From contig NZ_SNYF01000005.1 of assembly GCF_004362805.1 (NCBI RefSeq), forward strand, positions 62,001-126,000: 64,000 nucleotides of DNA, given 5' to 3'. Position 1 is the stretch's first letter, and each line of letters starts with the position of its first letter. Made by a program: the position numbers and the translations under genes. Shown piece by piece: positions 26,329 through 49,632 of the stretch. The stretch comes from Algoriphagus boseongensis. Lineage in GTDB: Bacteria > Bacteroidota > Bacteroidia > Cytophagales > Cyclobacteriaceae. The notes beneath the pieces are model-generated. The model did no database searches. It had not been told where the DNA came from and was given only the letters and a program-made list of their open reading frames with translations.

Positions 26329-26630
26329 TTTTGAAGAAGAAATTCATTTACGAGTTACGATTTACGAATTACGAGGCTTTCTTTATGATTTAAGGTTAAT
26401 CTTTATTCAAACCATCTCTTTGACAAGAAATCTCGATATCGACTATTTGAGAACATTCAAAACCAAAAATCCCACATCCAACACTGGTCATCGGTCATCC
26501 GACTTCGATTTCGAGACTCTCGTCTCTCAAGTGCTCAGTCTTACAAATTACTTCCGTCCTCCGTCTCCTATCTTCCGTCATCCGTCTCCCGTCTCCTATC
26601 TTCCGTCTTCCCTCTTCAAACTCAATCCCC
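26329..26630. repeat. Two phased-word repeat islands between pta and ackA
   Basis: TTACGA starts at 26348, 26355, 26362 and 26369, exactly 7 bp apart. Further on, CCGTC starts at 26554, 26561, 26575, 26582, 26589 and 26603, all multiples of 7 bp apart, with related words filling the gaps. A TCATC/GGTCATC pair with the same period lies near 26490. No convincing gene is present. The ackA promoter and ribosome site must lie in or just after the CCGTC island. Confidence 0.85.
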
Positions 26631-31825: not shown

Positions 31826-32005
31826 AGAAATTATTGAGTTACGATTTAAGAATTACGATTTACGAGGGGCTGAGGGACCTCAAGGGCATTATTCAAGAGG
31901 AGGACATTTAAGGGGAAATCTGGAGTTTAAAGAATTACGAGTTACCAGTTACGATTTACGAGGGGGTGAGGAACCTCATGGGCTTTTTCAGAAGGATACC
32001 TTTAG
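31826..32005. repeat. Tandem TTACGA repeat island
   Basis: TTACGA at 31839, 31853 and 31860 with TTAAGA at 31846 keeps a 7-bp phase. The block from about 31854 is repeated from about 31946 (TTTACGAGGGGNTGAGGNACCTCANGGGC type). Each copy includes a small hairpin TGAGG/CCTCA. No gene is seen in this 232-bp spacer. Confidence 0.8.
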
Positions 32006-38274: not shown

Positions 38275-38282
38275 TACTTTTG
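38275..38282 (+). promoter_or_regulatory. Minus-7 promoter box of lepA
   Basis: TACTTTTG fits TAnnTTTG exactly and lies 15 nt before the ATG at 38298. No clear minus-33 TTG is seen. Confidence 0.55.
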
Positions 38283-38297
38283 CCGCACGAAAAGCTT

Positions 38298-40085
38298 ATG
38301 AAAAACATTAGAAACTTCTGTATCATCGCCCATATTGATCATGGGAAGAGTACGTTGGCGGATAGGTTGTTGCAGTTTACCAATACGATCTCCGATCGGG
38401 AAATGCAAAACCAAGTGTTGGACGATATGGATCTCGAGCGTGAACGTGGCATCACGATCAAGTCTCATGCGATTCAAATGAAGTACACTTACCAAGGTGA
38501 AGAATATACCCTCAACCTGATCGATACCCCTGGTCACGTTGACTTTTCTTATGAAGTTTCCCGATCCATTGCTGCCTGTGAAGGGGCATTGTTGATTGTA
38601 GATGCATCTCAGGGAATTGAGGCTCAAACTATTTCCAACTTGTATTTGGCTTTGGGTCATGATCTTGAAATCATCCCTGTTTTAAATAAAATCGATTTAC
38701 CGGGTGCTGATCCTGAAAGCCGTGCTGATGAGGTTATTGACCTGATCGGTTGCAGCAGAGAGGATATTATTTTGGCCTCAGGAAAAGAAGGAATCGGTAT
38801 TGAAGATATTCTAAATGCGGTGGTAGAGCGAATTCCAGCTCCAAAGGGAGATCCTGAAGCCCCACTTCAGGCTATGATCTTTGACTCTCAATTCAACTCA
38901 TTTAGAGGTGTTGAGGTAATTTTCCGCGTTTTCAACGGAACCATCAACAAAGGAGATAAGATCAAATTTGTCAATACAGGAAAAGAATATTTTGCCGACG
39001 AAATCGGCATCTTGGGGATCAATCAAATTCCTCAGCAGACAATGGCTGCCGGAAATGTTGGTTACCTGATTTCAGGTATCAAGGTGGCTAAGGAAGTCAA
39101 GGTTGGTGATACAATCACTCACGTGAAAAACCCATGCAAAGAGGCGATCAAAGGTTTTGAAAACGTAAAACCAATGGTTTTCGCGGGGATTTATCCCGTT
39201 GATACTACCGAGTTTGAGGAGCTTCGAGCCTCCATGGAAAAGCTCCAATTGAATGATGCATCCTTGGTTTGGGAACCTGAAACCTCTGCTGCTTTGGGCT
39301 TCGGTTTCCGTTGTGGTTTCTTAGGAATGCTTCATATGGAGATTGTTCAGGAGCGTTTGGAGCGCGAGTTTGATATGACGGTAATCACTACTGTGCCATC
39401 GGTTCAGTTCAGAGCGATCATGACCAATGGGTCTGTTCAGCTGATCAATGCGCCAAGTGATATGCCAGATCCAACCAAAATGGATCATATTGAAGAGCCT
39501 TTTGTAAAAGCCTCAATTATTACAGCTTCTGACTATGTAGGTCCTGTTATTCAGCTTTGTATGGAAAAAAGAGGCCAGATCAAAAATCAGGTTTACTTGA
39601 CAGCTGATCGGGTGGAACTCCAGTTTGATATGCCTTTGGCGGAAATCGTATTTGACTTTTTTGACAAACTGAAGACAATTTCCCGAGGATATGCATCCTT
39701 GGATTACGAGATGAAAGGCTTTCAGCAGTCTCACATGGTTCGTTTGGATATCATGTTGAACGGAGAGCCTGTCGATGCACTTTCTGCAGTAGTTCACCGC
39801 GATAAAGCTTACGAATGGGGTAAGAGACTTTGCGAAAAGCTTCGTGAATTGGTTCCAAGACAGATGTTTGAGATTGCAATCCAAGCGGCTATCGGGCAAA
39901 AAATCATTGCCAGGGAAACTATCAAAGCTTTAAGGAAAAACGTTTTGGCGAAGTGTTATGGTGGTGATATTTCCCGAAAGAGAAAGCTTCTCGAAAAGCA
40001 GAAAAAAGGTAAAAAGAGAATGAGACAAGTCGGCAACGTCGAGGTCCCTCAGGAGGCGTTTATGGCGGTGCTTAAATTAGACTAG
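38298..40085 (+). CDS. lepA: Elongation factor 4 (LepA) translational GTPase
   Basis: The product is 595 residues. GTPase motifs are AHIDHGKST (G1), RGITIKS (G2), DTPGHVD (G3) and NKIDLPGA (G4). The LepA-specific C-terminal domain ends [18 protein letters not shown] and AFMAVLKLD. LepA binds ribosomes and acts in elongation or ribosome assembly. An upstream TTG at 38280 falls in the promoter and is not used. The length matches the family. Repeat islands lie both upstream and downstream. Confidence 0.96.
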
Positions 40086-40086
40086 G

Positions 40087-40117
40087 GATTTACGAGTTAC
40101 GAATTACGATTTACGAG
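40087..40117. repeat. Left TTACGA array of the 40149 element
   Basis: TTACGA starts at 40090, 40097, 40104 and 40111, exactly 7 bp apart. It begins 5 nt after the lepA stop codon. The mirror-image array lies on the far side of the next gene. Confidence 0.88.
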
Positions 40118-40148
40118 CTGATTTTGAACTTCAAAACTTATTTCCACT

Positions 40149-40502
40149 ATGAAACAGGATATGAATTTGAGGACAAAACAGTTCGCAATTGATGTTTGGT
40201 TACTTTGTTCAAAAATCCCTCATTCTCGAGAATACACTAATTATGTCAATCAGCTTTTGCGGTGTTCAAGTTCGGTTGGTGCAAATTTCCGGGCAGTTGG
40301 AAGGGCGAAATCGAAGGCTGATTTCATCAATAAATTGAAAATTGTGGAAGAAGAGGCTGATGAGAGTCAGTTCTTCCTGGAGCTTATTTTAAAAGTAAAT
40401 TCTAATCCTGAATTGGTTGTTGAAATTGAGCGATTGATCAAGGAAATAAATGAGATTATAGCAATTGTGGTTTCTAGTTTAAAGACAGCAAGGACTTCTT
40501 AA
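40149..40502 (+). CDS. Four-helix-bundle protein (S23/IVP family)
   Basis: The product is 117 residues, all-helical. The family pattern is clear: NLRTKQFAIDVWLLC at the N-terminus, NQLLRCSSSVGANFRAVGRAKSKADFINKLKIVEEEADESQFFLELI in the middle. Relatives are found in 23S rRNA intervening sequences and as Avd-like accessory proteins of diversity-generating retroelements, but most have no known role. Here no reverse transcriptase or rRNA is near. An in-frame ATG at 40161 is an alternative start. The gene is bracketed by four TTACGA units on the left and four TCGTAA units on the right. Confidence 0.85.
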   Translation: MKQDMNLRTKQFAIDVWLLCSKIPHSREYTNYVNQLLRCSSSVGANFRAVGRAKSKADFINKLKIVEEEADESQFFLELILKVNSNPELVVEIERLIKEINEIIAIVVSSLKTARTS

Positions 40503-40522
40503 AAATTTGAGGTTCAGGTAGA

Positions 40523-40553
40523 CTTCGTAACTCGTAACTCGTAACTCGTAATT
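40523..40553. repeat. Right TCGTAA array of the 40149 element
   Basis: TCGTAA starts at 40525, 40532, 40539 and 40546, exactly 7 bp apart, inverted relative to the left array. It ends 6 nt before the folD ATG, so the element has inserted tightly between lepA and folD. Confidence 0.88.
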
Positions 40554-40556
40554 AAA

Positions 40557-41438
40557 ATGATATTAATCGACGGTAAAAAAACATCCTCCGAAATAAAAAA
40601 TGAAATCGCCACCCGTGTAGCTGAAATCAAATCCGAAGGCGGCAAGACTCCACATTTGGCGGCTGTTTTGGTGGGAAATGATGGTGCTAGCCAAACCTAT
40701 GTTGGAGCCAAGGTGAAAGCCTGCGAAGAAGTTGGGTTTAAGTCTACTCTTGTTCGCTTAGAAGAAACCGTTTCTGAGGCCGAATTACTTCAAGTCGTGG
40801 AGGACATCAACAACAATCCGGATATCGATGGATTGATTGTTCAGCTTCCTTTGCCCAAGCATATTTCTGTAGATAAAGTGACCAATAAAATCCGTCCTGA
40901 AAAGGATGTGGATGGTTTTACTCCAGCCAACGTGGGAAGAATGACGCTCAATTGGCCAGCCTATGTAGCTGCGACTCCCTATGGAATCGTGGAATTATTG
41001 AAGCGATACAATATTGAAACTTCTGGAAAGCATTGTGTGGTCATTGGTCGAAGCCATATCGTGGGAAGTCCAATGAGTATTTTGATGGCTAGAAATGGCT
41101 ATCCCGGAAATGCAACGGTAACTTTGACACATAGCCGAACCAAAAATCTTTCAGAAATCACCAAAACCGCCGATATTCTTATAGTAGCAATTGGAAAACC
41201 TGAATTCGTGACGGGAGATATGGTGAAGCCAGGAGCAGTGGTAATCGATGTGGGAATTCACCGAATTGAGGATTCCAGCAAAAAGTCAGGTTTCCGTTTG
41301 ATTGGAGATGTGAAGTTTGACGAAGTAGCTCCTTTGGCTTCAGCAATTACCCCTGTTCCGGGTGGAGTCGGTCCAATGACCATTGCAGCTTTGCTCTATA
41401 ATACCCTTCAATCTGCAGAAAAGAAGGTTTTTGGTTGA
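40557..41438 (+). CDS. folD: Bifunctional methylenetetrahydrofolate dehydrogenase/cyclohydrolase
   Basis: The product is 293 residues. FolD signatures: [17 protein letters not shown] with the catalytic Tyr and Lys, [21 protein letters not shown] and the NADP-binding [10 protein letters not shown]; the C-terminus has [12 protein letters not shown]. It interconverts methylene-, methenyl- and formyl-tetrahydrofolate in the cytoplasm for purine and formyl-Met synthesis. The start ATG lies 6 nt after a repeat array, so its translation signals are within or beside inserted DNA. Confidence 0.95.
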
Positions 41439-45464: not shown

Positions 45465-45556
45465 TTCAATATTCATCATTTAGCGTTTGGTGTTCGATAT
45501 TTTAAAGTCTTTAATTTCGAATATCGAATAAAGAATATCGAATATCGAAGTAGTTT
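45465..45556. repeat. GAATATC phased-word island
   Basis: GAATA starts at 45519, 45526, 45533 and 45540, with a GAAG at 45547, exactly 7 bp apart. Related TTCGATATT words lie upstream. No gene. Confidence 0.78.
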
Positions 45557-49605: not shown

Positions 49606-49632
49606 GCCTCGTAAATCGTAATTCGTAAATCT
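49606..49632. repeat. Solo TCGTAA array
   Basis: TCGTAA starts at 49609, 49616 and 49623, exactly 7 bp apart. It is the right-end orientation of the family bracketing the gene at 40149, here without a gene or a left partner. Confidence 0.8.

Follow-up and report, generated by a model that had tools for sequence, protein, structure and literature searches.

To our knowledge, no function has been assigned in decades to the S23/IVP genes, which encode four-helix-bundle (fhb) proteins, and the tandem heptamer repeats of bacterial genomes have no known maker. Cyanobacterial short tandemly repeated repetitive (STRR) sequences are heptamer tandem repeats. The 23S rRNA intervening sequence (IVS) of Coxiella burnetii is 428 nt long, contains an S23 open reading frame (ORF) and has a 28-bp terminal stem, with a folding energy of -143 kcal/mol (PMC4990558). 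Heptamer repeats of the word TAACTGA occur in Beggiatoaceae, cyanobacteria and some Bacteroidetes, and MacGregor described a genome rich in TAACTGA in which one protein, BOGUAY_0693, has 29 close copies (PMC4679880). Here we describe an element that combines both features, an fhb gene between two inverted arrays of a 7-bp-phased word, located between lepA and folD in a 64,000-nt stretch of the Algoriphagus boseongensis genome (contig NZ_SNYF01000005.1, positions 62,001 to 126,000; the window). No published description of fhb genes with heptamers was found in the open literature, subscription papers and preprints lying outside the search.

The 5' arm consists of four TTACGA words starting at 40090, 40097, 40104 and 40111, in steps of exactly 7 bp with G, A and T as the spacer letters, and it begins 4 nt after lepA. 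The 3' arm has four TCGTAA words, starting at 40525, 40532, 40539 and 40546, and ends 5 nt before folD. A preliminary description had reported both arrays, with their 7-bp spacing, and the complete S23/IVP gene between them; all were found as described, its distances to lepA and folD being off by one. The word is far more frequent than chance would allow: with at most one mismatch, TTACGANTTACGA matches 17 times in the window (0.13 expected), the three-unit pattern TTACGAN has 14 exact matches genome-wide against none for the reversed pattern, and the window holds 10 period-7 segments where about one is expected.

The ORF between the arms matches Pfam family PF05635 (23S_rRNA_IVP) with an E-value of 1.4e-12 and 48.2 bits, against a curated cut-off of 33.8; it is one of six such genes in this genome and its product is 98% identical to an fhb protein of A. 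mannitolivorans. The AlphaFold2 model has four helices, with a predicted local distance difference test (pLDDT) score of 94. In the PDB its fold is matched by the S23 proteins 2rld and 2gsc and by the Avd-containing ribonucleoprotein of a diversity-generating retroelement (DGR), 8ub7. Structure 2rld has five chains, and a Xanthomonas protein is reported as a homopentamer, according to a passage of PMC4990558 that cites that work. By analogy with the solved relatives, the protein of the element may form a pentameric ring, and such a ring could read about one heptad per subunit.

A 474-nt sense RNA of the element was predicted to fold at -133.3 kcal/mol (z -5.0), the arms forming a terminal stem of about 25 bp, whereas a single arm alone is unstructured. 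In this respect the element is very like a 23S rRNA IVS, with an ORF of the same Pfam family, a length in the range of about 430-470 nt, paired inverted ends giving a stem of about 25-28 bp, a similar energy (-133 vs -143 kcal/mol) and a mobility that has long been suspected for the IVSs. It differs in lying between two protein genes, outside any 23S rRNA helix, and in having heptad arrays as its ends, with a word that is specific to the protein subfamily. By architecture, therefore, it would work like an intergenic IVS, but by location it is not one.

Pairing is closest within an element. Across elements, upstream and downstream arrays resemble each other as reverse complements (similarity 0.672) and not in direct reading (0.454), the value for an unrelated element's arm being 0.465. 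The pairing energy was -20.2 kcal/mol for an element's own arms, -12.5 for the arms of same-family elements and -7.0 for unrelated arms. As own arms pair best, the two arms of one element must be kept matched, either by a base-pairing constraint or by concerted copying. The orientation of the genes is also far from even: by simple ORF calls, 197 of 234 fhb genes are in sense with both neighbours and six are against both. Random insertion between co-directional genes would give a near-even split, so that sense orientation is either selected or built in, and the bias favours a step at the RNA level. Two Nostoc and Anabaena plasmid loci (L286 and L289) carry an fhb gene with AAAAGT-type heptads in antisense between cas2 and cas1.

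The arrangement recurs widely around fhb genes. In a first set of 80 homologous loci, examined with a strict array threshold, arrays were found upstream of 55 genes, downstream of 45 and on both sides of 36, with period 7 only; the background elsewhere was 0.04 array segments per 200 bp. The set was enlarged to 251 distinct fhb genes by adding Algoriphagus paralogues, genes from across the Bacteroidota and plasmid genes of cyanobacteria, Chloroflexota and Treponema. Period-7 arrays then lay upstream of 187, downstream of 162 and on both sides of 140, so that most homologues are framed by inverted phased words, the outcome for which the preliminary description had suggested looking; shuffled flanks of the same genes gave 3, 5 and 0. 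This sample is weighted towards the window's own subfamily and the counts are therefore not independent. The shuffles and the other periods rule out chance or base composition as the source of the arrays. With both arms at period 8 in 13 genes, a few families evidently use octads, the loci L213, L266, L297 and L299 being framed by 8-bp instead of 7-bp words. Array length peaks at 4-5 units; being tandem, intergenic 7-mers in several copies per array, these are heptameric tandem repeats. They are widespread in these genomes, with a concentration at fhb genes: 122 of 164 spacers that touch one have arrays, against 34 of 148 others (odds ratio 9.7). On viral contigs no confirmed relative was found.

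The word itself follows the protein. The preliminary description had taken the ends to be made of short phased words, which is true of the homologues too, but TTACGA is not the sole word. Besides TTACGAN in the window, examples are GTACCAA (upstream of lpdA), GAAGACC, CAAGAGT, TTAGACG, TTATTGG and GTCCACG. Among 42 fhb genes from nine Algoriphagus genomes, word similarity across genomes was 0.626 within a protein subfamily; it was 0.478 within a genome and 0.484 between genomes, which rules out that the genome, and not the protein, sets the word. Part of this agreement is plain descent, since some subfamily pairs are orthologous loci. That objection does not apply to Flavobacterium, where the TACGA core is retained at other loci, or to a Planktothrix plasmid homologue (53% identical) that the same core frames; the core is found in the opposite orientation at Nostoc and Dolichospermum plasmid homologues (about 40% identical). 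All words also share a weak grammar, approximately K-T-N-V-G-A-A when read towards the gene, with C rare; its strength over 29 non-redundant arrays was 2.74 bits, compared with 2.00 +/- 0.10 in column-permuted controls. At plasmid loci L278, L280, L281 and L284 the fhb gene has neighbours with roles in defence or modification on either side (DISARM drmD and MmeI; DUF1156 and Swt1-HEPN; a helicase and a DNA methyltransferase).

The arrays share with the TAACTGA and STRR repeats their intergenic, tandem 7-mer nature, a scattered distribution over overlapping phyla and the lack of a known maker. Those repeats have been described as direct repeats of one word and were not linked to fhb genes, whereas here there are many words and the arms are inverted round a gene; the known cyanobacterial words were seen beside fhb genes in a few plasmid loci only.

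The history of the site was followed on a tree of lepA and folD from 85 genomes, with five states of the gap. In some relatives the gap is empty and only 17-50 bp long, and one such gap (L140) is from the same genus; these are the empty sites that the preliminary description had proposed to seek. Its view of arm, gene and arm as a discrete unit, of about 0.46 kb, is supported. Some other gaps hold arrays but no gene. Two types of fhb gene, 25-37% identical, occur at this one site: type A, with TACGA words, to which the window's gene belongs, and type B, with TTCGAYA/TTCATCA words. They alternate between close relatives, the tree requiring at least 28 changes of state. The close pairs L117/L118, L110/L119, L125/L129 and L105/L107 differ in state, and in L125/L129 a near-identical A-type 5' arm and the same next ten bases are followed by a B gene in one genome and an A gene in the other. 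The flanks beside the spacer are equally similar in switched and unswitched pairs and the switch is therefore restricted to the spacer. The agreement of type A genes with the flank tree is poor (r 0.31), and several type A genes are interrupted by stop codons. Two ways of producing such changes were considered and rejected. Homologous recombination in the lepA and folD flanks would leave donor-like divergence near the junction, of which there is none. For an ancestral tandem of A and B with differential loss, no spacer with both genes was present among those read; relic arms of the other type do occur, so nested states are possible. In a related genus, gap L184 holds a type B gene followed by very long arrays of TCGTAAN, the word of type A.

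Outside the element, the solo arrays that the preliminary description had placed at 26348, 31839 and 49609 are real and are listed with the other features below. Solo arrays occur frequently in these genomes and are built from many different words; their genome-wide count was by pattern only. Some are remnants of whole elements: L159 has only the 3' arm at lepA-folD where its sister L161 has an entire A element. TACGA arrays number a median of 12 in genomes with an intact type A gene and 6 in those with type B or none (p 0.022; p 0.006 when broken A genes are added to the comparison group, neither value being corrected for kinship). The word at one solo site can differ between sister species, the arrays at 26348 and 49609 being of TACGA type in the window and of TTCGA type in genome G010. 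The CTTCCGT-type heptad array at 26553-26617 is 42 bp, or six units, longer in the window than in G010.

Features of the lepA-folD element, its flanking genes and the solo arrays, in window coordinates
Feature	Position	Strand	Basis or remark
lepA, upstream flank	38280..40085	+	ends 4 nt before 5' arm
5' arm, four TTACGA words, 7-bp steps	40090..40116	+	pattern match; pairs with 3' arm in RNA fold
fhb gene, type A, 117-aa PF05635 four-helix-bundle protein	40149..40502	+	ORF, Pfam, AlphaFold2 model, PDB matches, dN/dS
3' arm, four words reading TTACGA on minus strand and TCGTAA on plus	40525..40551	-	pattern match, RNA fold
folD, downstream flank	40557..41438	+	starts 5 nt after 3' arm
Solo array, four TTACGA words	26348..26374	+	pattern match; TTCGA-type hairpin in same gap in G010
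Solo TTACGA-type array, one unit TTAAGA	31836..31865	+	pattern match; TTACGA array in G010 too
Second solo TTACGA-type array, 96 bp further on	31932..31961	+	pattern match
Gene-less inverted pair of TTCGATA-type heptads (hairpin)	45465..45549	.	RNA fold z -5.3; its orthologue in G010 has more units
Solo array, three TTACGA words	49609..49631	-	pattern match; TTCGA-type hairpin in same gap in G010

With moderate confidence, we regard the element as a member of a widespread class of compact, selfish and probably mobile cassettes in which a gene of the S23/Avd fold lies between inverted heptad arrays. The fhb protein would assemble as a pentameric ring, whose subunits would read the heptads of the purine-rich arm when it is single-stranded, either as RNA or where the DNA is opened. 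The two arms could also pair into the terminal hairpin. Once bound by the protein, this hairpin may be what host functions protect, excise or copy into new intergenic sites, since the element itself encodes no enzyme. Loss of the gene could leave single arms or gene-less hairpins as solo arrays. A number of observations weigh against this reading. For about 44% of fhb genes no 7-bp array could be detected on at least one side. The window's gene shows strong purifying selection, with a ratio of non-synonymous to synonymous substitution rates (dN/dS) of 0.03-0.07, which a host function would fit equally, and its product, with 17 K+R and 15 D+E, is not markedly basic. Type B genes fit the flank tree well (r 0.76) and some slots, such as that upstream of lpdA, are common to several species, so that much of the inheritance must be vertical. 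No insertion with exact ends or a target duplication was caught among the close pairs and empty sites, in a sample of one genome per species whose spacers are too diverged for exact ends; the transposition implied by the mobile element of about 470 bp in the preliminary description thus did not find the support that its discreteness did. Nor did the fhb genes read in the nine Algoriphagus genomes include any recent duplicates within one genome, the best pair being 66% identical.

Several of these points would suit an intergenic counterpart of the IVSs with no real mobility, a mainly vertical RNA hairpin cassette in the operon transcript. Its role would be post-transcriptional, in stability or autoregulation, with RNase III cutting the arms or the fhb protein binding to them. 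Purifying selection, the vertical history of type B, the sense bias (197 to 6), the terminal stem with its preference for own arms, and a size and stem like those of the Coxiella IVS all agree with it. We nevertheless consider it rather unlikely, as close relatives differ in which of two unrelated fhb types they carry at one site, empty gaps exist, broken genes are frequent and some fhb genes are antisense to both neighbours, for example between cas2 and cas1. The family-specific words and their common grammar, again with purifying selection, could also mean that the arrays are operators, the protein being a DNA-binding autoregulator with repeated double-stranded sites whose inverted placement gives two-sided control. 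This is improbable: a 7-bp step is out of phase with the DNA turn, the downstream arm follows the stop codon, the two arms of an element agree more closely than their common family word would require, and solo arrays persist with no gene nearby. That the arrays are a general mutational by-product, found beside fhb genes only because intergenic gaps accumulate both, is disfavoured as highly improbable. Arrays do occur in other spacers (34/148) and at solo sites, and do change length by whole units, as at 26553, but the odds ratio of 9.7 for fhb-adjacent spacers, the inverted orientation, the tie of word to subfamily and the pairing of the arms all speak against it.

A host helper enzyme might instead move the unit, either a reverse transcriptase partnered, as it is in DGRs, by an Avd-like protein, or a transposase of the type associated with repetitive extragenic palindromic (REP) sequences, a tyrosine transposase. 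Avd has the fold of the fhb protein and was solved in an RNA-bound reverse transcriptase complex (8ub7), but reverse transcriptase, template and variable repeat are all missing from the present element. No RVT_1 (reverse transcriptase) match was found in this genome, which rules out such dependence here; about ten fhb-rich genomes, each 99-100% complete, had none either. Genome G305 has 19 RVT_1 matches, many with identical scores, indicating a recent retroelement expansion, and 13 fhb matches. REP sequences with their associated tyrosine transposases (RAYTs) and miniature inverted-repeat transposable elements (MITEs) are, like the element, small intergenic repeats that form hairpins and come with or without a gene. 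They differ in that here no transposase is adjacent or needed, the ends consist of phased words instead of palindromes or classical terminal repeats, and no target duplication was seen. Y1_Tnp genes are present in this genome and many others, but none was found in the fhb-rich genomes G015, G236 (a single contig) and G038, and dependence on a REP transposase is thus disfavoured. Neither enzyme adjoins the element, whose neighbours are lepA and folD, and helper-driven movement is accordingly quite improbable.

More broadly, and more tentatively than for the selfish cassette itself, these elements could be an undescribed, phylum-crossing class of enzyme-less mobile elements, made of a pentameric fhb protein and its cognate heptad or octad arrays. 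Such a class would be the source of many unexplained heptamer repeats in Bacteroidota and cyanobacteria, with the 23S IVSs as one offshoot. The finding joins the S23/IVP genes and the heptamer repeats by one rule, an own 7-base word for each subfamily, set as inverted arms round the gene. Solo heptamer arrays and the 23S rRNA intervening sequences may have their origin here, and sequence data may reveal a code that links a small protein ring to a repeated word.
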